This document shows, piece after piece, positions 2,210-17,610 of a stretch of DNA of 22,369 bases. Source of the DNA: a virus. The notes below the pieces were generated by a model, which worked only from the letters and a program-made list of their open reading frames with translations, was not told the origin of the DNA and ran no database searches. The stretch's first letter is position 1, and each line of letters opens with the position of its first letter. The translations under genes and the position numbers were made by a program. The stretch is taken from the IMG/VR virus record IMGVR_UViG_3300020190_000385, positions 1 through 22,369 of that record. One strand, given 5' to 3'.

Positions 2210-2704
2210 TTAAAAATAATTAAAATTCACATTTACTCTACATTTGTCATCTGTGCAAGTAGTGCTACTATGCAATTCTGATGGATCAAATAAAAGTATT
2301 CTATTTTCTACCGAATTAATTTTTGTTCCATCACTCAAAATTGTAAGTCCATTATTTGTATTCAAATAAAAAATAGCACCTTGATGTTCATAAGAATAAT
2401 CAATGTGCGGTTCATGATATTTTATATCATTTGTTGATGGATATAAATTTGCTTTTATTCGGATAAGAGACTTAACTTCCAATTGATTTAAAATATCACC
2501 AAAAATATAACAATTTGGATCAACGTTAAATCCAGAATAAAAAAGATGAGTAAAATAATATGAACTAGTAACTTCTAAATTTTCTTTCAAATTAGAAACG
2601 GATGGAGTTAAATTCCACGAAAAATTTGGATTTAAAATTGAATTTTTAATTTTTAGAAATTTTTCAGTTTCAAGAAAATTATCTATTACTTTATAGTCTG
2701 TCAT
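2210..2704 (-). CDS. 2OG-Fe(II) oxygenase family protein (164 aa)
   Basis: The protein has the double-stranded beta-helix signature of 2-oxoglutarate/Fe(II) oxygenases: H100-I-D102, distal H145 (ELHSS) and R156, which would bind the 2OG carboxylate. The opening TDYKVIDNFL is typical for small phage members of the prolyl-hydroxylase-like group. It resembles the enzymes at 15666-16196 and 16422-16988 (IRIKANLYP versus ILRMKSNLL; a C-terminal NFN motif). Substrate is unknown. The start is the ATG at 2704, two bases beyond the preceding stop; an in-frame TTG at 2722 would overlap the upstream gene. It is much more AT-rich than the small genes around it, suggesting separate acquisition. Confidence 0.85.
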   Translation of the reverse strand: MTDYKVIDNFLETEKFLKIKNSILNPNFSWNLTPSVSNLKENLEVTSSYYFTHLFYSGFNVDPNCYIFGDILNQLEVKSLIRIKANLYPSTNDIKYHEPHIDYSYEHQGAIFYLNTNNGLTILSDGTKINSVENRILLFDPSELHSSTTCTDDKCRVNVNFNYF

Positions 2705-2705
2705 A

Positions 2706-2939
2706 TCAACAAAACTGGTCAATCGTTACTTCACTCTTTCTCTTGCTTGTTCTCTTTTTCTGATGTTTGATAGTAATAAAATCAACACACTCTTTAAGAG
2801 TTACAAACTGCTTGATTTGTTGCCCATTATTAATGACCATAAAGTTGTCACCATAAGGAATTGCAGCCCACATCTCATCGTGAGTGACATAAAACCTCTG
2901 GCACTCTGCTTCTAAAAGTGAACTATTTGTAAAAGACAT
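2706..2939 (-). CDS. small hypothetical phage protein (77 aa)
   Basis: This 77-residue protein begins MSFTNSSLLEAECQRFYVTHDE. It has a central segment that looks like a small beta sheet (AAIPYGDNFMVINNGQQIKQF) and a lysine/arginine-rich C terminus (KHQKKRTSKRKSE), which could contact nucleic acid. It has no recognised family. It follows a near-perfect sigma70-type promoter and is followed after one base by the oxygenase gene, so it probably leads an early two-gene unit. Confidence 0.8.
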   Translation of the reverse strand: MSFTNSSLLEAECQRFYVTHDEMWAAIPYGDNFMVINNGQQIKQFVTLKECVDFITIKHQKKRTSKRKSEVTIDQFC

Positions 2940-2960
2940 TACAACATCTCAATTGAAGTC

Positions 2961-2989
2961 ATTCTATACGACTAAGAAGTTTCTGTCAA
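2961..2989 (-). promoter_or_regulatory. near-consensus sigma70-type promoter
   Basis: The minus strand has TTGACA (2984-2989), a 17-base spacer and TAGAAT (2961-2966). The expected start is near 2954, about 15 bases before the ATG at 2939. This is the best sigma70-type promoter in the window. A perfect 6-bp inverted repeat (TGTCAA, five bases, TTGACA; 2984-3000) spans the -35 and could be an operator or chance. Confidence 0.8.
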
Positions 2990-3047
2990 TTACCTTGACA
3001 ATTATCAAAAATGTCTTTAGAATTGCTTTGTTAAGTTTGAAGATAAA

Positions 3048-3420: not shown

Positions 3421-3441
3421 TTGTCTGCATCATTTAATGCA

Positions 3442-3449: not shown

Positions 3450-3456
3450 GTTTGGG

Positions 3457-4257
3457 TCAAGAATAGAAATATTTTAATGTATTAATTTTTGTGATTTCAT
3501 CATAGACATCTCTATTCAACCACATATCAACATAATTATTTGTTCCTTCAAATCCAAGAGAAGCAATATCACCACCTCTACTTGGTTTTCTTAATGCAAT
3601 TATTTTTTTATCTTTATCTAATACAAAACCAGTAAGTTTGTTTGTATCATATCCAAATAAATTTAAAGTTTCTTCTTCAATGTTTATGTCTTTAATTTTT
3701 ATATGACTAACTTGACCATTAGTAAATACTTTATCAAAATTTTCTTGGGATCTCATAATAGATTTTCCCAATAAAGTGGGTCCACTCACATCAATTGCAG
3801 AAACTCCATAAAATTGATCTTTGCAATGATTAACCACTAAATCAATTGCTGTTTTTATAATATTTGATTTTGGTTTAGAATAAATGATTGCATTGTTAAC
3901 TGACCACCAAGGATCTGAAAATTCTGGTAGATCTCTAAATGCAAAAAAATTTGCATCTTCCAAACTTAAAGGATGAAGACACAAAAGACTTAGATCAATA
4001 TATAAACCTCCATACAAATAAAGAAGACAATATCTTGCAAGATCTGCTTTATATGCATAAGGTTTGAGTGAGTGGTATGACAATAATACTTCTTTTGGAA
4101 AATTATTTTTAAGAATGTTTTCTATTTCTTTACCAGAATATAAATGATAATCGTGATTGGGATATAAATTTTGAATTTGAAATTGAGTAAATTGAATATA
4201 CTCTGGAAGTTTTGGTATAGTATTGGATGAGTTTATGAGAATTTGGTGCAAGATCAT
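3457..4257 (-). CDS. GT32-like (OCH1/capsular type) glycosyltransferase (266 aa)
   Basis: The protein follows the plan of the glycosyltransferase sugar-binding (GT32/OCH1-like) family. It opens with an HQIL motif, has KADLARYCLLYLYGG at residues 70-84, and then YIDLS. In the family the last motif usually holds the DxD pair that binds metal and the nucleotide-sugar phosphate; here it reads D88-L-S90, so the second Asp is replaced. Length (266) is normal for bacterial and viral members. It would transfer a hexose from a nucleotide sugar to a glycan or protein in the cytoplasm. It closes the cassette sulfotransferase, oxygenase, unknown, glycosyltransferase. No ribosome binding site is obvious before the ATG. 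Confidence 0.85.
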   Translation of the reverse strand: MILHQILINSSNTIPKLPEYIQFTQFQIQNLYPNHDYHLYSGKEIENILKNNFPKEVLLSYHSLKPYAYKADLARYCLLYLYGGLYIDLSLLCLHPLSLEDANFFAFRDLPEFSDPWWSVNNAIIYSKPKSNIIKTAIDLVVNHCKDQFYGVSAIDVSGPTLLGKSIMRSQENFDKVFTNGQVSHIKIKDINIEEETLNLFGYDTNKLTGFVLDKDKKIIALRKPSRGGDIASLGFEGTNNYVDMWLNRDVYDEITKINTLKYFYS

Positions 4258-4297: not shown

Positions 4298-4621
4298 TTA
4301 CGCACTGATGGAGTATATATTGTAATCAGTTACTTTTTTAACTATGGTAAATGAATTTTGTAAAGATTTATGTGGTTCAACAATAGACATTATTTCTATA
4401 GAATTTTCATAACTATTCATTAATTTTAATTCTGTTGCAAATAATTTTCCTTCTTCTGGACAAATATTAATAACATTTTCTGAATGATTATATAAATCAC
4501 TGGAAAAATTTGCATTTAAAATAAAGTATGCGTATCCAGAACTTTCTTCAAATTTTCTAAAAACTTTGTTTAAATTTGGAACTTTATGTGTATAAAATGT
4601 TATTAAATTCTTTTGTTGCAT
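4298..4621 (-). CDS. hypothetical protein in modification cassette (107 aa)
   Basis: This 107-residue protein begins MQQKNLITFYTHKVPNLNKV and has no recognised domain, signal peptide or membrane span. An in-frame TTG at 4645 would add eight residues, but the ATG at 4621 is preferred. It still overlaps the end of the oxygenase gene by 38 bases in another frame, a long overlap that suggests both are translated from one message. Its place between an oxygenase and a GT32-like glycosyltransferase suggests a role in the same pathway, but the sequence itself does not show it. Confidence 0.65.
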   Translation of the reverse strand: MQQKNLITFYTHKVPNLNKVFRKFEESSGYAYFILNANFSSDLYNHSENVINICPEEGKLFATELKLMNSYENSIEIMSIVEPHKSLQNSFTIVKKVTDYNIYSISA

Positions 4622-5231
4622 CGGAATAAGATCTTCTTCCCTCAAGTTGTTCGTTATATTTTGAAAATGTTACGATGCTATATCTATTAATATTTTCATC
4701 ACCTTTTAATTTTGTTACTTCGTGAATTTCTTTTGCAAAAAATATTATTGATTGGTTATTTTTACATTTGTGTGTGTAATTATGCTCTGGAAAATGCAAA
4801 TCACCTCCTTCATGAATATCATAATTTTCATATAAAAAAGTAACCATACTAAATATTCCCCCATCAAAATGCGGAAGATAATAATCGTCTGAACTGTAAT
4901 GATTTAATAAATCACTCCCCCACATCAAAGTTTTATACATTCTTTGAAATGTTTTATTTTTCCAATTATTATCATGACCAACTTTTTTTGATATGTTGTC
5001 AATATGATTAATAATTTTTAAATCACCAAAAATTTTTGATTCTTGTAAAAAAATTCCTTTATTTTTTTTTAAAATTTTTCCGTTCTGTTTAGCAGATTCT
5101 GTAAATTCGGGTGGTTTAAATTCTTTTTTTAATAAATTTATTTCCTCATAAATTGAGGGTAATATTGATTTAGAGAAAACTTCATCAATTACTATGTGAT
5201 AAAAAGGAAAATCATTATGTTGAATATTCAT
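4584..5231 (-). CDS. 2OG-Fe(II) oxygenase, prolyl-4-hydroxylase-like (215 aa)
   Basis: The iron-binding triad is H121-F-D123 and H170, with R183 placed to bind 2-oxoglutarate. The segment YLPHFDGG...EGGDLHFPEH is typical of prolyl-4-hydroxylase-like enzymes, where a GG(D/T)L strand follows the HxD. Length is normal for a single catalytic domain. It lies 14 bases downstream of a sulfotransferase gene and overlaps the next gene, so it belongs to one operon. A hydroxylated product could be the acceptor for the sulfotransferase or the GT32-like enzyme (inference). The gene is very AT-rich with long A/T runs, unlike the fibre genes. Confidence 0.88.
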   Translation of the reverse strand: MNIQHNDFPFYHIVIDEVFSKSILPSIYEEINLLKKEFKPPEFTESAKQNGKILKKNKGIFLQESKIFGDLKIINHIDNISKKVGHDNNWKNKTFQRMYKTLMWGSDLLNHYSSDDYYLPHFDGGIFSMVTFLYENYDIHEGGDLHFPEHNYTHKCKNNQSIIFFAKEIHEVTKLKGDENINRYSIVTFSKYNEQLEGRRSYSDATKEFNNILYT

Positions 5232-5245: not shown

Positions 5246-6082
5246 TTATTTGTAATTAATATTTTTTTTATCAATTATATCTAGAGTATATGATTGTACC
5301 TTATATGGTTCTTTCCAAAACTCTAAATTCATATTTTTAAATTTTTCTACTATTTCTGGTGGAAGAATACACTTTGTTTGATTATACTCAACTTTTTTTC
5401 TAACCTTGTGCAAATCTTTAAGATTACAAGACCTATCAAAGTTTTCATTTTTGTATTCTACATTATTGAAGTCATGTTCATAATATGGTTTTTCTAAAAA
5501 TTCATATATTTTTCTCATCGTTTTCTCTGGATTTTTGCACAATTCATCGTATTCAATAAAATGAATTACTTCCGAATTAAATGCATACCCTTCCTTAAGT
5601 GAAATTAAAGGATTAATAACAATTCCATTTCTTTCGTCCATCAATACGTTGCATCTTGAAAATACATTTTCCGCATCTTTTGTTATTGGCGTTTTGTAAA
5701 ATGGATTTTTTAATACAGCATGTTCAAATGAATTAAGAATAGATACAATATCTCTAACTGGACATAAAATTTTTGTGTATGGAAAAAGTTTTTGAAGCAA
5801 ACTAATTTTTTGCGTCCAAATTCTAGAAGTATCAAAAATTATTGGACTATCTATATGTTTATAATAACCATCAAAAATTGAATATATTATATTTTGTCTT
5901 TGAATTTCTTCTATAGTAAAATTATTTTCGCATTTAGAAATCATATCTATAGCATTATCTATAAACATCACAATTGGTGATGTTACGTCAGCATAAAATT
6001 CTGGATTTTGTCTAAGAATACTAGAAAGTAATGTAGAACCTGATCTTGGAAGTCCAGAAATAAAATAGTATGATTTCATCAT
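5246..6082 (-). CDS. PAPS-dependent sulfotransferase (278 aa)
   Basis: Residues 10-19 (GLPRSGSTLL) are the 5'-phosphosulfate-binding loop of PAPS sulfotransferases. Residues 107-120 (CPVRDIVSILNSFE) match the 3'-phosphate-binding region with its Arg and Ser. The enzyme would move sulfate from PAPS to a hydroxyl on a sugar, peptide or small molecule. It is a close paralogue of the 278-residue enzyme at 12541-13377, clearly more than half identical by eye and ungapped over most of the length. Two ATGs in tandem (6082, 6079) begin both copies (MMKSYYFISG). It follows an adhesin gene directly and has its own extended -10 promoter. Substrate unknown. Confidence 0.9.
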   Translation of the reverse strand: MMKSYYFISGLPRSGSTLLSSILRQNPEFYADVTSPIVMFIDNAIDMISKCENNFTIEEIQRQNIIYSIFDGYYKHIDSPIIFDTSRIWTQKISLLQKLFPYTKILCPVRDIVSILNSFEHAVLKNPFYKTPITKDAENVFSRCNVLMDERNGIVINPLISLKEGYAFNSEVIHFIEYDELCKNPEKTMRKIYEFLEKPYYEHDFNNVEYKNENFDRSCNLKDLHKVRKKVEYNQTKCILPPEIVEKFKNMNLEFWKEPYKVQSYTLDIIDKKNINYK

Positions 6083-6128: not shown

Positions 6129-6698
6129 TTAAGTTGGTGTGCATCTAAAAGCACGGACAGAAATATTATTGTTATTAATACCATTATTTCCATAATTAGT
6201 GTCATCTGCTCTTGTTACCCACCATCCTTGCCCGTGTGAGTCGCTTGACCTATACCAATAATTGGTTCCATAGTAAGTCATAGTAGTTTGAGTTCTTGCA
6301 TCCCAATATCTCCAACATTGCCCAAAAGTCATTAACATACCAAGTTGGGGCACAAACCATCCACAAGATCCCATACAAGAGTTTGCTACTGTCACTGCGT
6401 CATCAACTGTTCCTCCACCTGTCCCTGCGGGCCTAGCTACTTCTGTGCAAGAAGGTGCAATAAAGTATTTACATGTTCCTGAACAACAAATTAGAAACCC
6501 TTTGCAATCAGAGGGTGGATTTTTTGCTTGGCAATATATTTCGTTTAAATTAAACCTACCAGCTCCAGGTACATTGTCACATCTACAACCTAATGCTATT
6601 GGGTTAAATGGGCAAGTCCTAGGACCAATAACTCCTCCATTGCCTCCAGTAGGACTTACAAGTCTAGTATTTAAATTAGAGGGTCTAAATGGTGCCAT
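6129..6698 (-). CDS. cysteine-containing C-terminal adhesin / tail tip protein (189 aa)
   Basis: The protein starts MAPFRPSNLNTR, like its paralogue at 20974-21690 (MAPFRPTHLNKR). It shares IALGCRC, ICC, FIAPSC, ANSxMGSxGWFVP and a closing RAFR. The C-terminal half, ending in VRAFR after a WYRSSDS segment, resembles the DUF1566-like receptor-binding domain of bacterial and phage surface proteins. It holds 13 cysteines; those at 38/40, 71/72, 84, 108 and 128 match cysteines in the paralogue, so they are probably structural. As the last gene of virion protein, chaperone, adhesin, it is a candidate host-recognition protein. That role is inferred from position and fold. Confidence 0.8.
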   Translation of the reverse strand: MAPFRPSNLNTRLVSPTGGNGGVIGPRTCPFNPIALGCRCDNVPGAGRFNLNEIYCQAKNPPSDCKGFLICCSGTCKYFIAPSCTEVARPAGTGGGTVDDAVTVANSCMGSCGWFVPQLGMLMTFGQCWRYWDARTQTTMTYYGTNYWYRSSDSHGQGWWVTRADDTNYGNNGINNNNISVRAFRCTPT

Positions 6699-6702: not shown

Positions 6703-7140
6703 TTACTCTGGTTGAGTTGGCCAGATCACATTTTTTGGATCAGTTGTGTTAGAAGGAAGATCTCTAAGATCTTTACGATAAGTTTTCCAAGCAGTAGAAA
6801 GAGTTGTTCCCTCTTCCTTTGCTTTAATAACAACCCAATCAGTTGAACTTAAAAGAAAATCTCTTTGTCCTCTCAATCTATTCCAAAAAAATTCATCTGG
6901 AATTGATGTGGTAATCCAATTTTGTTCTTCTGAACTCCATGCTTGAATTTCAACATCCGCATCAAATTCTGGTTTTGTGTATGGTCCAGTATATCCTGCT
7001 TTTGCAAGTTCTTCATTAGTAAAAGTTTCTACACCTTGTCTGAAGTTGGTTGCTCCCCAACCTTCTTGATAAAAAATTTCGTGAGGAAGAGGTTGTGGCT
7101 CTCCACCTTGATAAGAATAAAGTGCGTTTGGATCGGCCAT
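6703..7140 (-). CDS. tail fibre assembly chaperone-like protein (145 aa)
   Basis: The N terminus MADPNALYSYQGGEPQPLPHEI is nearly identical to the protein at 21703-22275. The C-terminal ~55 residues carry RDFLLSSTDW (93-102), YRKDLRDLP (121-129) and NVIWP (137-141). This is the pattern of small phage tail-assembly/fibre chaperone proteins related to XkdW and DUF4376. It probably helps fold or attach the adhesin encoded four bases downstream. A good ribosome binding site (AAGGGAG) precedes the ATG. The paralogue has an extra ~45-residue coiled-coil tail that this one lacks. Confidence 0.78.
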   Translation of the reverse strand: MADPNALYSYQGGEPQPLPHEIFYQEGWGATNFRQGVETFTNEELAKAGYTGPYTKPEFDADVEIQAWSSEEQNWITTSIPDEFFWNRLRGQRDFLLSSTDWVVIKAKEEGTTLSTAWKTYRKDLRDLPSNTTDPKNVIWPTQPE

Positions 7141-7164: not shown

Positions 7165-7539
7165 TCAAAGATTGGTGATATCTTCGTAAGATACAACTAA
7201 ATCAATTGCACTTGCTGTTCCGCATAAAGCAGTAAGTGAACGTGCCTCTTCCAAATAAATTGAAGATGCTTTATCTAAAATAACAAGAGTGGATTTAGTC
7301 GCAATATCAATACCGTTTGCAATTGCCAGAGTAGTTCCTGCTCCAGCAGCTGCATCATTATACCTTACAGTAACAGTTGCAGTTGAAGCAGTTTTATTTG
7401 CAGCTACAATTGCATTGATTTTAAATACTTTTCCACTTCCAGCAGTATTGCTAACAATAGTTGTCGCAGTTGTTCCTAAAGTTTGGGATGTGGTAATGCC
7501 AAGAATAGTTGTTACGCCTACAATATTTGGAGCAGCCAT
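7165..7539 (-). CDS. small virion structural protein of receptor-binding module (124 aa)
   Basis: The sequence is rich in Ala, Thr, Val and Gly with alternating beta patterns (STATVTVRYNDAAAG, AIDLVVSYEDITNL). This is typical of a small beta-sandwich virion protein, such as a fibre adaptor or neck/fibre decoration. The last ~23 residues match the partial gene at the right edge of the window (SYEDITN near the C terminus in both), showing that the whole three-gene module is duplicated. A perfect T4-type late promoter box lies 34 bases upstream of the ATG, supporting a structural role. Exact position in the virion is unknown. Confidence 0.75.
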   Translation of the reverse strand: MAAPNIVGVTTILGITTSQTLGTTATTIVSNTAGSGKVFKINAIVAANKTASTATVTVRYNDAAAGAGTTLAIANGIDIATKSTLVILDKASSIYLEEARSLTALCGTASAIDLVVSYEDITNL

Positions 7540-7572
7540 GTTTTTATCTTAACGTGTGTTTGTAACTCTATT

Positions 7573-7580
7573 TATTTATA
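7573..7580 (-). promoter_or_regulatory. T4-type late promoter
   Basis: A perfect TATAAATA is present on the minus strand in the 45-base gap before the gene starting at 7539. T4-like phages use this -10 box with the gp55/gp33/gp45 late machinery. It would drive the module 7539-6129. Confidence 0.7.
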
Positions 7581-7584
7581 TTAT

Positions 7585-7875
7585 TTAAGATCTATGGGGA
7601 TGATCTCCAATTATTAATTTCAATGCAATTAATTTTGAAACACTTACTACAGGAATATTAGTTAACTGAGATCCATTTCCACTAAAAGTAGTTGCAGTAA
7701 TTATTCCAATAATATTAGCATTTTTTGCTGTTAAAAAACCAACTGTAGCAATCCCAGAAATATTTAAGTTTCCTTGGACAATGATTGGTTGTCCTTCACC
7801 AGTTGATGCTCCAGTGATAAACTGAACCTCACCATTATTATTTTTATTTACAATTGAATCAGAACGAATTCTCAT
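7585..7875 (-). CDS. tandem short fibre protein, copy D (96 aa)
   Basis: This is the last of four tandem paralogues. After the N-terminal MRIRSDSIVN it carries LNISGIATVGFLTAKNANI followed by GIITATTFSGNGSQLTN, a motif found many times in cyanophage fibre shafts. It is nearly identical to copy C over ~45 residues, but differs in the first third (EVQFITGASTGEG). Its ATG overlaps the stop of copy C by four bases. Each copy is too short for a whole fibre; it may be a trimeric collar or an alternating subunit of a hetero-oligomeric structure (inference). Confidence 0.8.
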   Translation of the reverse strand: MRIRSDSIVNKNNNGEVQFITGASTGEGQPIIVQGNLNISGIATVGFLTAKNANIIGIITATTFSGNGSQLTNIPVVSVSKLIALKLIIGDHPHRS

Positions 7876-8165
7876 GCTCGGTGAGGCAATGGATCTAGTA
7901 TCATCTTCAACGCAATAGATTTTGATGAACTTACTACAGGGACATTTGTTAATTGGGAACCATTTCCACTAAAAGTAGTTGCTGTAATTATTCCAGTAAT
8001 ATTAGCATTCTTTGCTGTTAAAAATCCAACAGTTGCTATTCCAGAAATATTTAAATTTCCTTGGATATTCAATAATTGACCAGATGGAACTGTTGCTCCA
8101 TATGATAATTGAACAGTGTTATTATCATTTCTATTAACAATTGAATTAACTCTAAGTCTTGCCAT
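7872..8165 (-). CDS. tandem short fibre protein, copy C (97 aa)
   Basis: The second-to-last tandem paralogue begins MARLRVNSIVNRND. It shares SYGA.xPSGQLLN and the LNISGIATVGFLTAKNANI block with copy B, and the ITGIITATTFSGNGSQL block with copy D. It therefore sits between them in sequence as well as in position. Its C terminus IALKMILDPLPHRA matches the end of copy D (GDHPHRS) in having a proline-histidine-arginine tail. At the DNA level its end shares an exact 53-base stretch with copy B (7912-7964 versus 8190-8242). Confidence 0.82.
   Translation of the reverse strand: MARLRVNSIVNRNDNNTVQLSYGATVPSGQLLNIQGNLNISGIATVGFLTAKNANITGIITATTFSGNGSQLTNVPVVSSSKSIALKMILDPLPHRA
7912..7964. repeat. 53-base direct repeat, left copy
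   Basis: These 53 bases are identical to 8190-8242, 278 bases away, about one gene length. Both encode the same region near the C termini of copies C and B (NGSQLTNVPVVSSSKSIAL). A further exact 29-base match lies at 8026-8054 and 8303-8331. The identity suggests recent duplication or continuing gene conversion. Confidence 0.9.
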
Positions 8166-8167
8166 TT

Positions 8168-8446
8168 TTAACTACCTATAATTGCAAGAGCAATAGATTT
8201 TGATGAACTTACTACAGGGACATTTGTTAATTGGGAACCATTACCAACAAATGAAGTTGCTGTAATAACACCTATAATATTGGCATTTTTTGCTGTTAAA
8301 AAACCAACAGTTGCTATTCCAGAAATATTTAAGTCCCCCTGAACATTTAATAATTGTCCAGATGGAATTGAAGCACCATAAGATAATGTGACTGCACCGG
8401 TGCCATTTACGTCTGTAATACTATCTACTCTGATTTGTGATGGCAT
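8168..8446 (-). CDS. tandem short fibre protein, copy B (92 aa)
   Basis: The second tandem paralogue begins MPSQIRVDSITDVNGTG, with the conserved RVxSIT start, SYGASIPSGQLLN, the LNISGIATVGFLTAKNANI block and VITATSFVGNGSQLTN. It lacks the PHR tail of copies C and D and ends IALAIIGS. The ribosome binding site GAGGAAAG precedes the ATG, and the gene is separated by only two bases from copy C. Membership in the fibre shaft/adaptor group rests on the ITATxFxGNGS motif; exact structural role is unknown. Confidence 0.82.
   Translation of the reverse strand: MPSQIRVDSITDVNGTGAVTLSYGASIPSGQLLNVQGDLNISGIATVGFLTAKNANIIGVITATSFVGNGSQLTNVPVVSSSKSIALAIIGS
8190..8242. repeat. 53-base direct repeat, right copy
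   Basis: This is the second copy of the exact 53-base repeat described at 7912-7964. Recombination between the two would delete one 278-base unit and leave a fused fibre ORF in frame, because both copies encode the same frame. Confidence 0.9.
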
Positions 8447-8456
8447 TGTTCTTTCC

Positions 8457-8738
8457 TCAGGTTATTAGATGAAGACCGATGGCTTTTCCTGTTAATGTTC
8501 CACCAGGAATGTTAGTGATACCTGCTGCTGAACCAGAAAATGTCGTTGCTGTTAAAATTCCAACAGATAATCCAGATGATAGTTTAATCTCAGTTATTGT
8601 TGCAACACCAGTTGTACTCATATTAATCACACTTTGAGTAATTGTTGGAGATCCACTTGCAAAAGTTGCTCCTCTGGTAAACTCTACTGGACCAGTTCCC
8701 GTTTCATTTGTTATACTTTGAACTCTAAGTACTGACAT
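8457..8738 (-). CDS. tandem short fibre protein, copy A (93 aa)
   Basis: The first and most diverged of four tandem paralogues begins MSVLRVQSITNETGTG. It keeps the RVQSIT start, the VxxTRGA turn, the GVATI...GILTATTFSG core and an ITNIP segment, but its middle (STTGVATITEIKLSSGLSV) differs from the others. This is consistent with an older duplication. A strong ribosome binding site (AGGAGA) precedes the ATG. It lies ten bases downstream of the MTKARDIS fibre protein, so the five form one late operon with it. Confidence 0.8.
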   Translation of the reverse strand: MSVLRVQSITNETGTGPVEFTRGATFASGSPTITQSVINMSTTGVATITEIKLSSGLSVGILTATTFSGSAAGITNIPGGTLTGKAIGLHLIT

Positions 8739-8749
8739 AAATTCTCCTG

Positions 8750-9123: not shown

Positions 9124-9131
9124 TATTTATA
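9124..9131 (-). promoter_or_regulatory. T4-type late promoter
   Basis: A perfect TATAAATA on the minus strand sits 18 bases before the ATG at 9106. It lies in the 30-base gap after the glycosyltransferase stop, and separates the modification cassette from the fibre operon 9106-7585. Confidence 0.7.
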
Positions 9132-9904: not shown

Positions 9905-9905
9905 T

Positions 9906-10611: not shown

Positions 10612-11619
10612 TCATTGATATAAAAATGAATTTGATTTTAAAATTTTTTTATGAGATAAATTTTCCAAATCTTTAAGTAATTCAATCCATTCTTGTATTC
10701 TCTTTTCCCAATTGAAAAAATAATCTACGTATTCCTTTTGTTTTTTTAAATGACTTTGAATTTCTTGATCATTGACAATATTTATTGCTTTTTTTAAAAC
10801 ATAATAAAATTTTTCTTCATGCAAAATAATTTTTTCATGATATGGATACATCATTGTCCAGTTAGATGCTGTCTCTGGAAGACCTCCATAATTAGGATGA
10901 ACACATAAACAACCAGCACTCATTGCCTCTAAAAGTGATAAACAAGAAGTTTCTGGTGTAATATTTGGATAAGCACAAATATGAGAATATGCTAATGATT
11001 TTTTAACTTTTTCATTTGATACATAACCAATATTATTAATTTTTGGATGATTTTCTAACTTTTGATATAAAGTGCTATTTTCATACTTTTTTTGTAAAGT
11101 TTTCATTCCATAAATTTCCCAAGAAGAATAAATTTTAAGTTCAATATTATCATGTTCACTGCACAATTTTTCAAAAACATTAACTAACAGAGAAAGACCT
11201 CTATCTGGAACTGCATTATATGTTAATATAATTTTATCTTTTGGTTTTTTTTGAAATTGAATTGGATTTATTGCATTTTTTATTACAATGCAATAATTTC
11301 TTGGGATATTGTAAGTTTTAATCCAATTTTCCATTTGATAATGAGAAACGAACACAAGTTTGTGAAAATTTCTCCAACCACCATTAGATAATGGTTTTGT
11401 ATTTTTATATTTTAAATTTTTTAATAATTTTTCATTAATTTCTGGATTTAGGTGTGACCAATAAATTCTTATTTTTGTTTCATCTAAATTTTCAAATCTA
11501 TCTGTAATAATTTGAAATTTATTTAAAAATTCTTTCGGTAATCTATTTTGCATCTCACACTTAATAATCTCTGTTCCACCTTTTGCTGATTTACTAAAAG
11601 TATCAAATTCTATTGCCAT
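10612..11619 (-). CDS. GT4-like glycosyltransferase (335 aa)
   Basis: This is a two-domain GT-B fold typical of GT4 (Glycos_transf_1). The N-terminal loop SAKGGTEI (11-18) would approach the nucleotide sugar. The C-terminal EX7E motif is E223 to E231 (PETSCLSLLEAMSAG), followed by the conserved P-x-YGGLPE. Length is normal. It retains both key glutamates, so it is probably a retaining transferase using a nucleotide sugar in the cytoplasm. It overlaps the GT9-like gene by 17 bases and is followed after 58 bases by the methyltransferase, all in one operon. Donor and acceptor are unknown. Confidence 0.88.
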   Translation of the reverse strand: MAIEFDTFSKSAKGGTEIIKCEMQNRLPKEFLNKFQIITDRFENLDETKIRIYWSHLNPEINEKLLKNLKYKNTKPLSNGGWRNFHKLVFVSHYQMENWIKTYNIPRNYCIVIKNAINPIQFQKKPKDKIILTYNAVPDRGLSLLVNVFEKLCSEHDNIELKIYSSWEIYGMKTLQKKYENSTLYQKLENHPKINNIGYVSNEKVKKSLAYSHICAYPNITPETSCLSLLEAMSAGCLCVHPNYGGLPETASNWTMMYPYHEKIILHEEKFYYVLKKAINIVNDQEIQSHLKKQKEYVDYFFNWEKRIQEWIELLKDLENLSHKKILKSNSFLYQ

Positions 11620-12544
11620 TCAAAATGCCTATTAAATCTTCCTTGATTTTTTCACATATATTCAAAATTTCATCATCAGTGTATTCCATACATTCCTTGT
11701 TCAATCTTTCTGCCATGTTGGACTGTAATCCAGAAATTCTCATTGGAGAATATAGTGGTTTTTTTCTTTGAATAATTCTAAAATAATCAGGATATGACAT
11801 ATTAATTGCATCAGTTCCACCCATAATTACACATCCTTGAGTGCCTGTTGCTCTTGCAATATGTTGTCCCACACTATCGCAACCAACTAAATAATCAACT
11901 TGAGATATTACTCCCATCCAGTCACGAATATGAAGATCTGGTTGAGGAACATATACGAATTTATTATCTTCGGAAAGAAGATGAGGATATCCCATGTAAA
12001 TAATGTTGTAATCTTTTGCAAGAAGTTCGCAAAGTTTATTAAACATATTCTCTGGCAATGATCTCAAACTATCGTCATAGACCCCCACAGGACATACTTG
12101 AGCAGTTGATCCATAAGGATTAATAACAATTGTTTGTTCTTTTTTTTGCATTTCATATGCGTTATAAATGATTTCTTGACCTCTACGAATTTCTGCTTGA
12201 GAAAGATTGAGAGTTTCATATTCCAAATCAGAGTGATCTTCAGTTTCGTTAATAATCTCATCAAAAGCCTCTGCTAAAGATATTTTTCCCTTATAAAAAT
12301 TTGGAAGACGATAAGGTTCTGGAGAAATGACTTCATCTGCTTTCATAAAAATATTTTCCCAAACACCTTTTGTATCTGGATTAAAAGTTCTTTCTTGAAG
12401 TTCTGTAATACCTAAAGGGACATAATCCCAACCAAAAATATTAACATACCAGTCTTCATCTGAATGATTTTTGTGATATTTGAGAAGTGCTGGAAGTGCT
12501 GTAATTACTCTACCTATTCCACCATCAATGTTGATAATTTTCAT
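11603..12544 (-). CDS. GT9-like (heptosyltransferase family) glycosyltransferase (313 aa)
   Basis: The layout is that of GT9/heptosyltransferase-like GT-B enzymes. The N-terminal DGGIGRVITALPAL (7-20) corresponds to the GDxIxALPAL loop. The second-domain start INPYGSTAQ (141-149) follows, then DYLVGCDSVGQHIARATGTQ (217-236), the donor-binding region with the conserved C/GxDSG-type turn and HIA. Heptosyltransferases act on LPS core, but phage relatives may use other sugars, so a heptose donor should not be assumed. Its ATG overlaps the sulfotransferase stop by four bases, so the two are translated together. Confidence 0.85.
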   Translation of the reverse strand: MKIINIDGGIGRVITALPALLKYHKNHSDEDWYVNIFGWDYVPLGITELQERTFNPDTKGVWENIFMKADEVISPEPYRLPNFYKGKISLAEAFDEIINETEDHSDLEYETLNLSQAEIRRGQEIIYNAYEMQKKEQTIVINPYGSTAQVCPVGVYDDSLRSLPENMFNKLCELLAKDYNIIYMGYPHLLSEDNKFVYVPQPDLHIRDWMGVISQVDYLVGCDSVGQHIARATGTQGCVIMGGTDAINMSYPDYFRIIQRKKPLYSPMRISGLQSNMAERLNKECMEYTDDEILNICEKIKEDLIGILNGNRI

Positions 12545-13377
12545 TTGTACTCGATGAATTTTTTGTCTAATTTGGTAATGATATCCGCATTTGGTTTATA
12601 TCCATCCCTCCAAAATTCCATACCCATTTCCTTATATTTTTTAACTATCTCCGGAGGAAAAATATTTTTTGGTGGATTGTACTCTACTTTCCTTTTAACA
12701 GTATGAAGATCTTTTAAGTTACAGGTTTTATCAAAAGTTTCATTTGAGTATTCAACATTTTTAAAATCATGTTCATAATAAGGTTTTTCTAAGAAATTAT
12801 AAATTTCTTTCATAGTTTTTTCTGGATATTTACATAAATTTTCATATTCAATAAGCAGTATCATTTCTGGATTTAGTGCGTATCCTTCTTGCAATGAAAT
12901 CCAAGAACCTGCAACAAGTCCTCCATTCCTACCCATCATATCATCACATCTTGCGAATACATTATCCGTATGGTTAGCAAATGTTTTGGTATGAAATGGA
13001 TTTTTAGAAGAAATAACTTCAAATGAATTGAGAATGGATACAATATCTCTAACAGGACATAAAATTTTTGTATAAGGGAAAAGTGCTTTAAGAAAATTTG
13101 TTTTTTTTGTCCAACCTCTTGAACTGTCAAAGATGACAGGTTTATCTATATGTTTATAGTATCCATCAAGAATTCCATACATTAAATTTTTTCTTTGATC
13201 TTCTGTAGATGTAAGATTAGTTTCTGAACTTGTGATATTATCAATTGAAGTTTCTGTAATTGTTTGTACTGGTGATGCAATGTCGGCATAAAAATCTGGA
13301 TTTTGTTTTAAAATACCAGAAAGCAACGTAGATCCAGACCTTGGAAGACCAGATATGAAATAGTATGACTTCATCAT
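12541..13377 (-). CDS. PAPS-dependent sulfotransferase (278 aa), paralogue
   Basis: This enzyme has the same length (278) and start (MMKSYYFISG) as the one at 5246-6082. It carries the 5'-phosphosulfate loop GLPRSGSTLL (10-19) and the 3'-phosphate motif CPVRDIVSILNSFE (107-120). The two differ most around residues 33-70 and 120-150, where acceptor recognition often lies, so they may sulfate different acceptors. It lies five bases downstream of an oxygenase gene and overlaps the GT9-like gene by four bases. That order (hydroxylate, sulfate, glycosylate) is suggestive, but the reaction sequence is inference. Confidence 0.9.
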   Translation of the reverse strand: MMKSYYFISGLPRSGSTLLSGILKQNPDFYADIASPVQTITETSIDNITSSETNLTSTEDQRKNLMYGILDGYYKHIDKPVIFDSSRGWTKKTNFLKALFPYTKILCPVRDIVSILNSFEVISSKNPFHTKTFANHTDNVFARCDDMMGRNGGLVAGSWISLQEGYALNPEMILLIEYENLCKYPEKTMKEIYNFLEKPYYEHDFKNVEYSNETFDKTCNLKDLHTVKRKVEYNPPKNIFPPEIVKKYKEMGMEFWRDGYKPNADIITKLDKKFIEYK

Positions 13378-13382: not shown

Positions 13383-14000
13383 TTAATTATTTTCTTCTGA
13401 AGAATTACTTTGTTTTGGAATCATAATTACATTAAATGAAATTGAAATTCTTTCTTCATCATGATCATTGGTTTCAACAGAATGAGGAATATATGAAGGC
13501 CAAAGGATAATTTGACCTTCTTCTGGTTCAATTTTTACACTTTCTGCAGTAAATTGATTTTTTTCATTAACCAAACTGCATCCTGTCCACATTAAATTAA
13601 TCCCTGGATTAATAACACAAAGTTTTCCACTACCTTCTGGTGCTTTAAGATAAAAAACACCAGAAAAAACATCACCATGAATATGATGGGCATTCATTGC
13701 TTGTCTTGTATCATTGAAGTTAACCCAAGAACTGGTTATAAAAACATCTCTTTCTACAAAATTTAAATCTTCTGCTGCATTATTTGCTAGGGCAGCAATA
13801 TAATTAAAAAGTGGTGCTAATTCTTCTTTTGCATGAAGAAATTTTGGGGATTGATATCCACCAACATTTGATTTTCTATTTGATTCTGGATTTTCTTGTC
13901 GGTATCTTTTACATGCACCAAGAATAATTTCTTTTTGTTCTTCAAACTCTGGATATTCTGTTTGCCAAATTGGAGTTGAATAAATTGGCATTAAGTTCAT
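13383..14000 (-). CDS. 2OG-Fe(II) oxygenase, TIGR02466-like (205 aa)
   Basis: The protein matches the putative 2OG-Fe(II) oxygenase family often labelled TIGR02466. It starts with MPIYSTPIW (residues 4-12), a P-x-x-x-T-P-I-W opening typical of the family. The iron ligands fit H108-G-D110 and H173 (IPHSVETND), with R184 for 2-oxoglutarate. SGVFYLKAPEGSGKL (113-127) and EGQIILWPS (161-169) are also characteristic. It leads the 14000-9137 modification operon, coupled to a sulfotransferase. A promoter with TGATATAAT overlaps the stop of the upstream short fibre gene. Substrate unknown. Confidence 0.9.
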   Translation of the reverse strand: MNLMPIYSTPIWQTEYPEFEEQKEIILGACKRYRQENPESNRKSNVGGYQSPKFLHAKEELAPLFNYIAALANNAAEDLNFVERDVFITSSWVNFNDTRQAMNAHHIHGDVFSGVFYLKAPEGSGKLCVINPGINLMWTGCSLVNEKNQFTAESVKIEPEEGQIILWPSYIPHSVETNDHDEERISISFNVIMIPKQSNSSEENN

Positions 14001-14264: not shown

Positions 14265-14987
14265 TTAGTTTGATCTATCCCACGCACAATGAGCACGTAA
14301 TCCATCTTGCAAAACATAATGGAAGAAAATTTGATGGTAATAAGTTTTTTGATTTTTATTTACCCACTTTCCTATTTTATTTTTATCAGGCATTGGATCA
14401 CGCCAATGTGGTCTTTCACATCCTTTATAGATCATTCCATCACCTGCTTTAAGGATCACTGAACGATTTTCACCAGGAACTAAAATCTGTGTTTTCTTTT
14501 TATCTGCATAAGTATCAGGAGTTTTAATCCAAATGGGCCAATCAGCATCTTTACCAGTTAGATTAGTGCTGATATGAACCGTTACAGAAATCTCACAGGC
14601 ATCACGATCTGCATGTTTTGTTAATTCCTGCCCAGGAAAGTAATACCTGTCGTAATAGTAAGTATTATAAAGTTTACGACCTAATTCTTTTTCTAGTTTC
14701 ATACGAATACCAGAATGGATTTGACGATACTGTGGATGCCAGTAACGTGCAAGAGATCCTTCAACTTGATTTTCTATTGGGGTATAAGAATATTGGTCAT
14801 TATTTTTACCCCAATAATTCAATTGACCCTTAATTTCGGGAAGAGGGTGATAGAGTTCTTCTGGATCCCATAAGTTTTTAATAACAAGGTATCCGTTTTT
14901 TTCAAAGAATTCGTTATGAGTCCATGTAGTACCTGAATTAATTTTTTCTTGAAAATTAATTTGATCTTCTGTCATTGGTTCTGCCAT
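14265..14987 (-). CDS. 2OG-Fe(II) oxygenase (240 aa)
   Basis: The iron-binding motif is H125-A-D127 in LTKHADRDACEISVTVHIS. The distal His is probably H194 in CERPHWRD, and a Q-x-F-F-H-Y-V segment follows (residues 219-225). The GDGMIYKGCE (182-191) turn and final AWDRSN resemble a family of 2OG-Fe(II) oxygenases found in cyanophages and marine bacteria. Its base composition is richer in G+C than the AT-rich oxygenases upstream, suggesting longer residence in the genome. A GAGG ribosome binding site precedes the ATG and it follows the P4H-like gene by eight bases, so both share the promoter at 15640. Confidence 0.88.
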   Translation of the reverse strand: MAEPMTEDQINFQEKINSGTTWTHNEFFEKNGYLVIKNLWDPEELYHPLPEIKGQLNYWGKNNDQYSYTPIENQVEGSLARYWHPQYRQIHSGIRMKLEKELGRKLYNTYYYDRYYFPGQELTKHADRDACEISVTVHISTNLTGKDADWPIWIKTPDTYADKKKTQILVPGENRSVILKAGDGMIYKGCERPHWRDPMPDKNKIGKWVNKNQKTYYHQIFFHYVLQDGLRAHCAWDRSN

Positions 14988-14995: not shown

Positions 14996-15616
14996 TCACT
15001 TCCAACGGGGCCCAACCGTCCAGCCAACTAGTGACTTACGGATTCCTTTTGTAACTTTAAGAACTCTATGCTGGGTGCGAGAATCAAATAGAATCACTGT
15101 GCCACGCTTACGAGGTGCAATATAACTATTCCCCGCTTCGTCCAAAAGTTGTAGGTTTCCGCCTTCATAATCATCAGGGTCACTCAGTTGAACTACGAAA
15201 GAAAGTTTCCTTACAAGCTCAATGTTTTCATTTAGGAAATCTTGTGCAAGACCATCCTGGCGATTACCAACACTTACGGGTTTGTATTGAGTTGCAAGTC
15301 CTGCGTCGTTGTGCCAACCATAAAACTGTCCTGCCTCATACTTCGTGAACTGCATTGATTCACCATCAATACAACGGAGATCATACAGGAAGTTCTCACG
15401 GTTTGCCCGTTCAATATAATGCCATACGAATCCACCAACCCAATGTGTGGTTGGGATCCAAGCATTTTGTGAGTTTCGTTTATCCTTATTAAGGGCATCT
15501 CCTTGCAATTTGGAGTCTGCCATTTGATCATCAAAATTTTCTGTTAAATCTTTTTCAATAATATCTACTATTTCTTCGGGTAGATCACTAAAATACCAAA
15601 TTGTTTGAAATGCCAT
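14996..15616 (-). CDS. 2OG-Fe(II) oxygenase, PKHD-type prolyl hydroxylase-like (206 aa)
   Basis: The catalytic motif is H102-N-D104 (FYGWHNDAG) and H183 (RTQHRV), with R193 in KGIRKSLVGW for 2-oxoglutarate. The strand RKLSFVVQLSDP, then YEGGNLQLL, is the classic prolyl-4-hydroxylase/PKHD pattern. The N terminus is also typical of cyanophage P4H-like proteins. It has its own TTGACA-type promoter overlapping the stop of the upstream oxygenase gene. G+C content looks higher than in genes 15666-17610, so it may belong to an older, more conserved phage gene set. The substrate could be a peptidyl proline, but this is unproven. Confidence 0.92.
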   Translation of the reverse strand: MAFQTIWYFSDLPEEIVDIIEKDLTENFDDQMADSKLQGDALNKDKRNSQNAWIPTTHWVGGFVWHYIERANRENFLYDLRCIDGESMQFTKYEAGQFYGWHNDAGLATQYKPVSVGNRQDGLAQDFLNENIELVRKLSFVVQLSDPDDYEGGNLQLLDEAGNSYIAPRKRGTVILFDSRTQHRVLKVTKGIRKSLVGWTVGPRWK

Positions 15617-15639
15617 GTAAAAATAGTGTATTCAGGTTT

Positions 15640-15669
15640 GTTATATATCATTTTGAGGAGAGGTGTCAA
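15640..15669 (-). promoter_or_regulatory. sigma70-type promoter for the oxygenase pair 15616-14265
   Basis: A perfect -35 TTGACA (15664-15669) overlaps the TGA of the upstream gene. The -10 is TATATA (16-base spacer) or TATAAC (15640-15645; 18-base spacer), with TGA before it as a possible TG extension. It lies 24 bases from the ATG at 15616. Confidence 0.7.
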
Positions 15670-16196
15670 ATATTATTGAGATTGAAATTAATTACACACC
15701 TGAAATCATTTACTTGTGGTGGAGTGCTTGAGTGATACGTATTCCCGTCAAATATAACCATTCTTCCTTTTTTAGGAGTTATTTCATTGATGACTTTTAA
15801 GTTTTTATCATAAAAAATAGTTTCCCCACTACTATCATTTACATAATACAATAAAACAGTATGTGGATGGGTAAAATCAATGTGAGGAGTATTTGGTGTT
15901 GATTGTGTTTTCAATAACAAATTACTTTTCATTCGCAAAATTGCAGGAGATATTTGCGTTTTTTTGACGACATTATTCCAATCAAGCATCTCCATCAATG
16001 GGTGAATGGCATTAGAATGTATTTTACTATCCTGTATAAAATGATGTTCAAATTGAATCGTATCAGAAAATCCTTTTATCTCTTTTGTTTTTCCTGAACT
16101 TTTTTTAATCAAAAACCAAGGAAAATCTTGACCTAATAAAAAATTTTCTATTTTGTTAGACCTTTTTTCACTGACAACATCATCAAAAATTTTCAT
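15666..16196 (-). CDS. 2OG-Fe(II) oxygenase (176 aa)
   Basis: The triad is H105-I-D107 (TPHIDFTH) and H155 (TYHSS), with R166 in DFRCVINFN. The protein is a paralogue of the next enzyme upstream (16422-16988). Shared points are DFPWF/NFPWF near residue 25-30, HHFIQ/HYFIQ, ILRMKSNLL/ILRLQSNFL, and KKGR before the distal His. It also resembles the enzyme at 2210-2704. The set suggests duplication and divergence to act on different substrates. It has a strong promoter with a perfect TATAAT in the gap upstream. Length is short but complete for a single beta-helix domain. Confidence 0.88.
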   Translation of the reverse strand: MKIFDDVVSEKRSNKIENFLLGQDFPWFLIKKSSGKTKEIKGFSDTIQFEHHFIQDSKIHSNAIHPLMEMLDWNNVVKKTQISPAILRMKSNLLLKTQSTPNTPHIDFTHPHTVLLYYVNDSSGETIFYDKNLKVINEITPKKGRMVIFDGNTYHSSTPPQVNDFRCVINFNLNNI

Positions 16197-16421
16197 ATCT
16201 TATAGCATACTATAATGTTATTATATACGTTCTTTTAAAAAAGGACAATCCGTAATACAATATGCTGCAATGAAGATGAAATATATTGTTATGGAATGGC
16301 ATGAATATCATATGCCTTAAATCTTTGATAATTTTTTTTCCTAAAATTTTTATTGGATTTGTTTTGGATTTTTTTATTATTTCACATATGAATTATAAAT
16401 GAATTTAAAATCTTAGTCAAC
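16197..16421. other. 225-base gap with no convincing gene
   Basis: The gap between two oxygenase genes holds one clear promoter (16220-16248) and AT-rich sequence otherwise. I see no stable hairpin with a T tract, no RNA gene, and only tiny ORFs (16 codons on the plus strand from 16271; ~33 on the minus strand) without ribosome binding sites. It is the longest fully non-coding gap in the window. Confidence 0.6.
16220..16248 (-). promoter_or_regulatory. sigma70-type promoter with perfect TATAAT
   Basis: The minus strand has TTGTCC (16243-16248), a 17-base spacer and TATAAT (16220-16225). It lies 24 bases before the ATG at 16196 in otherwise empty sequence and would drive the oxygenase at 15666-16196. 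Confidence 0.7.
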
Positions 16422-16988
16422 TTAAAATTTAAAATTGAAATTTAAAACAACTCTATTCGTTTTTGGTAAAATTACTTTGTGCTCAATATCTCCAATAAAA
16501 AATAACCCTCTGCCCTTTTTTGGAGAAACTGATATTTTATTTTTTAAAATAGTTTTAGATCCGGAATCAGCATTATTCACATAATAAATTAAAACAATAT
16601 GCTTTTCTTTAGAGTCAACATGAAATGGTGTTTTTCTTCTCAATGCAAATTTATTTCCCCCCAAAAGAAAATTAGATTGTAATCTTAAAATATCACTGAA
16701 AGATACATTAAAAAAATTATTTTTATTTAAAAAATGATTTATTTCATATTCATGTATTTTAAAATAACTTATTATTTTTTCAGTATGTTCACTAAAATGC
16801 TCATTGTTTTGTATAAAATAATGATTAAAAAATCCAGTATCATCATTATTAGGAACTAATCCATTTTTCTTTGGAAAAATAGTTCCATTTATATAAAACC
16901 AAGGAAAATTTTTATCTGATAGTAAGTCTTCAATTTTATCTTGACTTTCCTCACTAATTAAATTATCAATAATGCAGTGGTCATTCAT
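16422..16988 (-). CDS. 2OG-Fe(II) oxygenase (188 aa)
   Basis: The triad is H123-V-D125 (TPFHVDSKEKH) and H170 (DIEHKV), with R179 in TNRVVLNFN. It is a paralogue of the enzyme at 15666-16196, with the same NFPWF, HYFIQ, ILRLQSNFL and KKGR landmarks, but with a longer insert near residues 75-95. Its ATG overlaps the stop of the upstream P4H-like gene by eight bases, so the two are coupled. The gene is among the most AT-rich in the window. It is followed by a 225-base gap, the natural end of the fibre/oxygenase transcript from the right. Confidence 0.87.
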   Translation of the reverse strand: MNDHCIIDNLISEESQDKIEDLLSDKNFPWFYINGTIFPKKNGLVPNNDDTGFFNHYFIQNNEHFSEHTEKIISYFKIHEYEINHFLNKNNFFNVSFSDILRLQSNFLLGGNKFALRRKTPFHVDSKEKHIVLIYYVNNADSGSKTILKNKISVSPKKGRGLFFIGDIEHKVILPKTNRVVLNFNFKF

Positions 16989-17610
16989 AATTAAACCATC
17001 CAGTAATTATATACTTTGTTTGTGTTTTACTTACAACTCCTCTATGAGTATGTGTCCATTCTGCGGGAAAAATACATAATCTTCCTTCTACCGCAGGTAT
17101 TTTCATATATGGTGATTGAAATTCTAAATTTCCACCATCAGTCACTGTATTTAAATACACAGTCCATACTAGCATTCTTTCTTTAATGTAATCCACATCC
17201 TTAGTGTTTTTTTCACAATGCCATCCAAAATAAGCTTCTCCCGGATGATACCTTTGAATATTAAATCTTGGATAAATATCCCACTTATTGATATTATTAA
17301 TTTGAATATATTTTTCTTTATATCTTTTTAAACTTGAGTTAATTTTGGATTTAAATTCTTCAATTGGAAATACAAATTCTCCACCCAAATTTAATAAGTT
17401 GTAGTTATAAAAACACAAACCAATATCTGTAGATTTTTTATTAGAGCTTAAAATTGCATCTTCTCCACTTGGAAGCATCACTTGCCCAGGTGCTTGTAAA
17501 TCAGTTCTAAATTCAAAAGCATCAATAAATGATTGACACGTTTTTTTGTTTAAAAATTTATCTTCAACATAAACATAATTTTTAAACCAATATTTTCTAA
17601 AAAATTTCAT
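16981..17610 (-). CDS. 2OG-Fe(II) oxygenase, prolyl-4-hydroxylase-like with HxE motif (209 aa)
   Basis: The sequence YHPGEAYFGWHCEK (121-134) aligns with the prolyl-4-hydroxylase iron site, but the second ligand is Glu (H131-C-E133) instead of Asp. Distal His is H187 or H189 (WTHTHRG), and K199 sits where P4H enzymes use Lys to bind 2-oxoglutarate. The strand LVWTVYLNTVTDGGNLEF is typical. HxE is tolerated in some 2OG enzymes such as clavaminate synthase, so activity remains possible. It directly follows the Gly/Pro-rich adhesin gene (17 bases), making that adhesin an obvious candidate substrate. That link is inference only. Confidence 0.88.
   Translation of the reverse strand: MKFFRKYWFKNYVYVEDKFLNKKTCQSFIDAFEFRTDLQAPGQVMLPSGEDAILSSNKKSTDIGLCFYNYNLLNLGGEFVFPIEEFKSKINSSLKRYKEKYIQINNINKWDIYPRFNIQRYHPGEAYFGWHCEKNTKDVDYIKERMLVWTVYLNTVTDGGNLEFQSPYMKIPAVEGRLCIFPAEWTHTHRGVVSKTQTKYIITGWFNYE

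Follow-up and report, generated by a model that had tools for sequence, protein, structure and literature searches.

Putative fibre-tip tailoring cassettes with 2-oxoglutarate oxygenases and sulfotransferases in a T4-like cyanophage locus

Why would a phage place eight 2-oxoglutarate (2OG)-Fe(II) oxygenases, two sulfotransferases dependent on 3'-phosphoadenosine 5'-phosphosulfate (PAPS) and several further transferases among its tail-fibre genes? This question is raised by the virus record IMGVR_UViG_3300020190_000385, an entire IMG/VR contig of 22,369 bases, which is referred to here as the window and whose genes are named by their lower coordinate. Judged by its gene content, the window derives from a T4-like cyanophage and represents part of its fibre region. 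Of 50,697 phage records, Synechococcus phage S-SM2 (Kyanoviridae) matches it best at the nucleotide level, and does so only across the gene pair 14265/14996. Almost all genes lie on the minus strand, with transcription running from high to low coordinates. In a judgement that we regard as evenly balanced, we suggest that the enzymes modify the tip of the tail fibre and that the window would thus be an expanded fibre-tip locus with two tailoring cassettes.

A cassette of tip, oxygenase and sulfotransferase genes

Around the relatives of the window's sulfotransferases in viral contigs a set of genes recurs, which comprises a lectin-like tip protein, a 2OG oxygenase of the 13383 type, the sulfotransferase, further transferases and a protein resembling family 9 glycosyltransferases (GT9), usually in this sequence. 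Cassette A of the window extends from tip gene 20974 across more fibre genes and oxygenases to oxygenase 13383, sulfotransferase 12541, the GT9-like gene 11603 and further transferases. Cassette B consists of tip gene 6129, sulfotransferase 5246, oxygenase 4584 and glycosyltransferase 3457, and recurs in locus L274, where the tip protein is 89% identical. The genes named are the following:

20974-21690, minus strand: Cys-rich fibre-tip protein, copy 1, lectin-like (Lcl_C family); in relatives, proteins of this family are diversified by a diversity-generating retroelement (DGR)
13383-14000, minus strand: 2OG-Fe(II) oxygenase of the cassette-specific clade (PF13759, tree)
12541-13377, minus strand: PAPS sulfotransferase (Sulfotransfer_3), copy 1 (PF13469, E 2.2e-16, and motifs)
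11603-12544, minus strand: GT9 (heptosyltransferase)-like protein, phrog_8954, a constant cassette member; family match below cut-off
6129-6698, minus strand: lectin-like (Lcl_C family) fibre-tip protein, copy 2 (family profile)
5246-6082, minus strand: PAPS sulfotransferase, copy 2 (PF13469, E 1.8e-17, and motifs)
4584-5231, minus strand: 2OG-Fe(II) oxygenase of a second cassette type (PF13640, E 3e-6; same neighbours in L274)
3457-4257, minus strand: DXD glycosyltransferase (Gly_transf_sug / Caps_synth, by Pfam)

How specific is this association? The loci compared are mostly IMG/VR metagenomic fragments of no known host, some of them near-duplicates, and fall into a close clade of 20 loci (about 16 distinct contigs), in which the sulfotransferase is at least 54% identical to 12541, and a sister clade of 72 loci with 45 to 54% identity. 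A 2OG gene lies no more than three genes away in all 20 close-clade loci as compared to 3 of the 72 sister-clade loci; the corresponding counts within six genes are 18/20 and 6/72 for the tip family, and 18/20 and 2/72 for a transferase or methyltransferase. The sister clade (L283-L348, about 50% identical) is found in other phages, mostly with neither a 2OG gene nor the tip family nearby. When near-duplicate contigs were taken out for the adjacency and tree tests, a 2OG gene was located within two genes of the sulfotransferase in 17 of 17 distinct contigs and directly adjoined it in 14 of them, as compared to 7.1 and 3.9, respectively, predicted from the genes that the loci contain. In a tree of 178 relatives of 13383 the cassette members form one clade (17 of 18 labelled cassette, support 99), and the cassette label changes 7 times as opposed to 22 times with shuffled labels. 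Judged by this tree, the 2OG subfamily beside the sulfotransferase is a single clade confined to the cassette. Moreover, a 2OG gene within 4 kb was found in none of 80 loci of bacterial chromosomal sulfotransferase relatives (at most 45% identical), so that the pairing is phage-only in the data analysed here.

By the neighbourhood, adjacency and tree tests, the combination of oxygenases with sulfotransferases and lectin-like tips thus stands well above chance. The number of oxygenases, which the first-pass annotation of the window had called unusual for 15 kb, does not: the 15 complete cyanophages that were annotated for 2OG genes carry 1 to 23 each and up to 9 per 15.4 kb (Syn9, 37 to 45 kb), and 24 have been published for S-SCSM1 (PMC9602691).

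Are the oxygenases of cyanophages linked to adhesins at all? The identification of fibre genes by repeat motif failed on cultured cyanophages, and glycine content was used instead. A 2OG gene was counted as linked when located within 12 kb of a glycine-rich gene, genomes that contain no such gene were set aside, and the counts were compared with those for rotated positions. For the nine genomes of the first test, a glycine-rich gene lay near 43 of 101 oxygenase genes, as compared to 51 of 467 control genes (rotation p = 0.0004). Because the pattern had been noticed before this first test, the same fixed test was repeated on six further genomes, with 22 of 38 oxygenase genes and 42 of 325 controls linked (rotation p = 0.0008). 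The adhesin link is therefore real for part of the cyanophage oxygenases, and the proposal of the first-pass annotation, which was to be given up if these families were scattered through related phages apart from fibre genes, survived in this respect. In Syn9 and P-RSM4 an oxygenase run lies directly behind fibre genes.

Further enzymes accompany these genes in some phages. Tryptophan halogenases, which might halogenate tip residues, are located beside a fibre tip and 2OG oxygenases in L010 (3266-4786) and next to Syn9's own 2OG run (32965-36070). Carbamoyltransferases lie near the sulfotransferase or a 2OG run in L008 (12692-14227), L276 (10803-12515) and P-RSM4 (34651-36315), a radical SAM enzyme is found in the cassette locus L008, and L271 carries a second sulfotransferase type.

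Late promoters and a retroelement at the tip gene

When would the cassette enzymes be made? The fibre and chaperone genes of the window, together with three sites resembling T4-type late promoters, are arranged as follows:

21703-22275, minus strand: tail-fibre assembly chaperone-like protein, copy 1 (MADPNALYSYQG... start; paralogue of 6703-7140, E 3e-46)
20463-20470, minus strand: TATAAATA, T4-type late-promoter-like site about 18 nt upstream of fibre gene 19474
19474-20445, minus strand: fibre protein with cyanophage-type repeats (from sequence)
18686-19426, minus strand: tail-fibre assembly chaperone-like protein (PF16778, E 2.6e-6, just over cut-off)
17628-18668, minus strand: glycine-rich (32% Gly) adhesin-like fibre protein (PF21722, E 1.5e-10)
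9124-9131, minus strand: TATAAATA, late-promoter-like site upstream of fibre gene 8750
7165-9106, minus strand: split fibre of six small open reading frames (ORFs 8750, 8457, 8168, 7872, 7585 and 7165), four of which are mutually similar repeats
7573-7580, minus strand: TATAAATA, late-promoter-like site upstream of 7165
6703-7140, minus strand: tail-fibre assembly chaperone, copy 2 (PF16778, Phage_tail_APC, E 1.9e-16)

The ORFs of the split fibre are closely spaced, with one overlap. With 3 sites against 3.6 expected, TATAAATA is no more frequent in the window than by chance, and only the placement of the sites, on the coding strand and just upstream of fibre genes, is informative. Over the 20 cassette loci 36 copies of the motif lie on the coding strand and a single one on the opposite strand. 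The motif is found ahead of 21 of 100 fibre or chaperone genes as opposed to 2 of 51 oxygenase and none of 64 transferase genes (21/100 versus 2/115 for all enzymes, Fisher p = 3e-6). Since the motif heads fibre genes and almost never enzymes, the latter are probably late read-through genes of the fibre operons, and this distribution favours modification of the virion. Of other motifs, CTAAATA proved uninformative and a longer AT-rich pattern gave no match.

The tip genes are of interest in their own right. In four distinct contigs (L006/L007, L271, L276 and L279) parts of a DGR are located behind the tip gene, with a reverse transcriptase in all four and, in L006, bAvd (PF22296) and the reverse transcriptase RVT_1 (PF00078) identified by Pfam. 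Template and variable repeats differ almost exclusively at template adenines (119 of 122 mismatches; 22/24, 18/19, 26/26, 20/20, 15/15 and 18/18), and this signature identifies the tip family as the predicted variable protein of the DGR in these loci. The element lies between tip and oxygenase, a 2OG gene being located directly behind the reverse transcriptase, and in L279 three tip genes are matched by a single template, and one of the three lies past the enzyme genes. By profile comparison, the variable C-terminal domain of the tip family is akin to that of Lcl (8q4e, E 1e-12); the family matches Lcl_C, a C-type-lectin-like domain, with PF07603 found in 11 of 27 members. A low-confidence model of 6129 (predicted local distance difference test, pLDDT, 62) has 8q4e as its top Foldseek match, followed by C-type lectins, none of them below E 0.001. 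Among the 50,697 phage records no match to the window's lectin-like tip was found.

What the enzymes may act on

We propose that the cassette enzymes are made late, by read-through from the fibre promoters, and that they would modify the tip in the cytosol, ahead of assembly. The 2OG enzyme would hydroxylate a side chain (or a sugar), the transferases would attach sugars and the sulfotransferase would attach sulfate, whereby charge and specificity of the receptor-binding surface would be altered. The order hydroxylation, glycosylation, sulfation is plausible. Sulfation of tyrosine is equally possible, as the solved structures nearest to the sulfotransferase by sequence are tyrosylprotein sulfotransferases (only E 6e-6). 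PAPS, 2OG and Fe(II) are cytosolic cofactors, and from T4 biology tail fibres are known to be assembled in the cytosol. Cytosolic, PAPS- and 2OG-dependent action fits the enzymes of the window, since they have no obvious membrane segment (highest 19-residue hydropathy 1.56).

What speaks for the fibre tip as the substrate is that it best explains the gene order, the late promoters and the co-inheritance of the genes. The first-pass annotation had likewise envisaged hydroxylation, glycosylation and sulfation of fibres; the fibre link, the dedicated 2OG clade and the placement of the promoters lend support to this idea, and its argument from an exceptional number of oxygenases falls away. Several points weigh against it. 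Many cyanophage 2OG genes are located far from fibres, and the copies in P-SSM2, S-SCSM1 and S-PM2 are mostly unlinked. Transferases of the GT4, GT9-like and Caps_synth types typically work on surface polysaccharides, the catalytic acid region of the sulfotransferase does not evidently align with that of the tyrosylprotein enzymes, and a prolyl-hydroxylase fold, as predicted for 14265, is compatible with more than one kind of substrate. In the window contig, itself a fragment, neither a template repeat nor, among the annotated ORFs, a reverse transcriptase was found, even though the tip family is present twice. Finally, the profiles behind the cassette statistics were built partly from the same, mostly hostless IMG/VR fragments, and the assignment of the cassette contigs to cyanophages, made by gene content, is confirmed by psbA in a single one (L276, 125 kb). 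A gp23 search gave no match anywhere, controls included, and is hence uninformative, and defence-system profiles yielded one weak generic 2OG match.

The main rival to a fibre-tip substrate is a late modification of host surface glycans, that is of the lipopolysaccharide or exopolysaccharide of the dying cell, which would act against progeny sticking to debris or against superinfection. Such a role would suit the transferase families just named as well as the carbamoyltransferases in the same neighbourhood of relatives, and the sugar-synthesis genes of large-genome cyanophages have been interpreted in this way (PMC9602691). However, instead of forming a separate early block, the enzyme genes are interspersed among tip genes and located downstream of them, they have no late promoters of their own, and members of the dedicated 2OG clade are found behind the tip gene. 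Moreover, in the genes examined we noticed no flippase, polymerase or membrane-embedded transferase, and the enzymes of the window have no obvious membrane segments. We therefore regard host glycans as a possible but doubtful target. It is unlikely, in our view, that the enzymes are hitch-hikers, gathered as useful but unrelated genes by a recombination hot spot in the fibre region and not acting on fibres. The duplication of cassettes and the presence of a truncated sulfotransferase beside a chaperone fragment do indicate high gene turnover in the window, and 2OG genes occur in other hot spots too. Yet gene content and order are kept across sulfotransferases that are 54 to 83% identical to those of the window, and neither the adjacency in excess of what the loci's own gene content predicts nor the confinement of the 2OG subfamily to the cassette would be expected from chance gathering.

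Least probable, and by our estimate very unlikely, is a metabolic or repair function, in which the oxygenases would lower host 2-oxoglutarate, steer nitrogen control or repair alkylated DNA. Such roles have been proposed for phage oxygenases (PMC3037559, PMC9146016, PMC9602691), and AlkB appears in the Foldseek list for 14265. They would leave the linkage to fibre tips, sulfotransferases and transferases unexplained, however; one efficient enzyme would be enough to lower 2OG, whereas eight divergent ones suggest distinct substrates, and for 14265 prolyl hydroxylases outrank AlkB.

Taking tip modification one step further, we tentatively suggest, as a possibility that falls well short of even, a two-layer receptor search. 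The retroelement would mutate the lectin tip, and the co-inherited toolkit of 2OG oxygenase, sulfotransferase and transferases, joined in some relatives by a tryptophan halogenase, a carbamoyltransferase or a radical SAM enzyme, would derivatise tip residues or glycans and so extend the surface chemistry beyond the 20 amino acids. The retroelement link would then unite genetic and chemical diversification at one locus. 2OG oxygenases abound in marine and freshwater cyanophages, nitrogen control and DNA repair being the standing guesses for their role, and a fibre-tip cassette with its own oxygenase clade offers a concrete substrate to test. If true, the cassette would provide an example of protein hydroxylation and sulfation in phages, with a receptor-binding protein as the target.

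How does the cassette compare with known systems? Both modification genes at phage fibre loci and lectins diversified by retroelements are already known; in the BPP-1 Mtd type a DGR diversifies the lectin of the tail fibre. Four of the relatives share with it a C-type-lectin-like tip, Avd, template repeat, reverse transcriptase and adenine-directed change, but the cassette relatives differ in carrying a 2OG oxygenase, a sulfotransferase and transferases behind the element, L279 in matching three tip genes with one template, and the window in having the tip family with no element. Hydroxylation and glycosylation of viral fibre proteins are known from the Mimivirus collagen lysyl hydroxylase/glycosyltransferase L230 and from PBCV-1 vCPH, the latter being among the structural matches of the 14265 model. 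These too are virus-encoded 2OG hydroxylases paired with transferases near structural genes, whereas the window, from a phage of cyanobacteria, has no collagen-repeat substrate, adds sulfation and contains several divergent 2OG families. Cultured cyanophages (Syn9, P-RSM4, S-SM2, S-SCSM1) share the 14996/14265 pair and 2OG runs behind fibre genes, yet no record searched contains the window's lectin-like tip, and a sulfotransferase, where present, is single and distant (up to 32% identical). Gtr-type seroconversion, a phage-encoded modification of the O-antigen, likewise relies on phage-encoded glycosyltransferases; in the window, by contrast, no membrane-bound GtrA/B/C was recognised, and its enzymes lie among late fibre genes. 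No description of the cassette was found in the titles and abstracts of the open literature, subscription papers and preprints being outside the scope, and the union of retroelement-diversified lectin/modification loci with hydroxylation and sulfation genes appears to be new.

The enzymes of the window

All eight oxygenases of the first-pass annotation are borne out by Pfam or PHROGs families; the ORFs are real, co-directional on the minus strand and mostly tightly packed. In addition to 13383 (H108xD110/H173/R184) and 4584 (H121xD123/H170/R183) they are:

16981-17610, minus strand: 2OG-Fe(II) oxygenase, HxE...H...K (PF13640, E 1.8e-11, phrog_61; H131xE133/H189/K199)
16422-16988, minus strand: 2OG-Fe(II) oxygenase (phrog_274, misnamed DNA endonuclease V; Pfam below cut-off; motif H123xD125/H170/R179)
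15666-16196, minus strand: 2OG-Fe(II) oxygenase, phrog_274 group (PF13640, E 2.9e-7; H105xD107/H155/R166)
14996-15616, minus strand: 2OG-Fe(II) oxygenase, PiuC-like, T4-GC 412 (Pfam; motif H102xD104/H183/R193)
14265-14987, minus strand: 2OG oxygenase with predicted prolyl-hydroxylase fold, phrog_2954, T4-GC 615, wrongly called ferrochelatase (motif, model)
2210-2722, minus strand: 2OG-Fe(II) oxygenase, phrog_274 group (PHROGs; motif H106xD108/H151, the R being read off the sequence)

Matches to 2OG-Fe(II) oxygenase families in Pfam are over the cut-off for 4584, 13383, 14996, 15666 and 16981 and under it for 16422; PHROGs places 2210 and 16422 in phrog_274 ('DNA endonuclease V') and 14265 in phrog_2954 ('ferrochelatase'). 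The metal-binding HxD/E...H is found in all eight proteins and conserved among the relatives of each, whereas the R or K that binds 2OG about 10 residues past the second His is present in seven, so that complete triads, previously claimed for all eight, hold except in 14265. For 13383 an HxH motif had been suspected from the PDB relative 2rg4 (HIHPHS) and a seemingly conserved H106. This was ruled out: among 266 relatives H108 is near invariant and H106 is not, which identifies H108xD110 as the predicted metal motif, position 110 being D or E in just over half of them. A scan of viral contigs gave no relatives of 4584, yet L274 carries one. Fusions of 2OG domains to fibre proteins were also looked for, and none was found. 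The phrog_274 members, which include 2210, 15666 and 16422 of the window and KJ019043 31189-32395, are 2OG oxygenases labelled 'DNA endonuclease V', a misnaming that hides many cyanophage oxygenases.

The two PAPS sulfotransferases both exceed the cut-off for PF13469, they are 62% identical to each other, and the 5'-phosphosulfate-binding (GLPRSGST) and 3'-phosphate-binding (R...S) motifs are represented by R13, S14, G15 and T17 and by R110 and S118, all invariant in 20 relatives. Among the 50,697 phage records no sulfotransferase match exceeds 32% identity. The remaining transferase-related genes are:

20800-20913, minus strand: truncated Sulfotransfer_2-like ORF (E 0.053, motif HIPKNAGTSI; weak)
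10612-11619, minus strand: glycosyltransferase group 1 (GT4; PF00534, E 7.6e-15)
9906-10553, minus strand: class I methyltransferase-like protein (PF13649, E 0.0025, below cut-off)
9137-9967, minus strand: possible GT2-like protein of uncertain function that recurs in the cassette (E 0.015, relatives give no support)

Of four glycosyltransferases proposed earlier, 3457 and 10612 are secure. By contrast, 11603 is GT9-like as a family only: Glyco_transf_9 is matched by 11 of the 16 family members (best E 0.0034) but not by 11603 itself, and no relative was found among solved structures; 9137 is doubtful. The methyltransferase assignment of 9906 is weak. At 20521-20913 (minus strand) a 37-residue Sulfotransfer_2-like fragment (HIPKNAGTSI) is followed by a start-less tail-chaperone C-terminus. 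By sequence these appear to be the remains of a third sulfotransferase and a chaperone, a sign of cassette turnover.

But what is the protein called ferrochelatase? In 14265 the metal triad H125xD127/H194 is kept, and the expected R/K site holds an invariant H218 (Q219). An AlphaFold model made from 35 relatives (mean pLDDT 90) has the double-stranded beta-helix, with a prolyl-hydroxylase fold across most of the chain, and best matches prolyl hydroxylases (Foldseek E 4e-9; VIA-align Z about 15), the closest being those that act on proteins. No Pfam family was matched by 14265, and neither a sequence nor a fold match to ferrochelatase was encountered. Since the model best matches prolyl hydroxylases, 14265 is predicted by fold to be a 2OG-type oxygenase, and the model provides no support for the name ferrochelatase. 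The name is carried in the GenBank records of S-SM2, P-RSM4, ACG-2014b and others, in PHROGs and in the literature, where a ferrochelatase has been described as paired with a 2OG oxygenase in pelagiphages (PMC9599517). If the pelagiphage genes share the family, its renaming removes the basis of that pairing.

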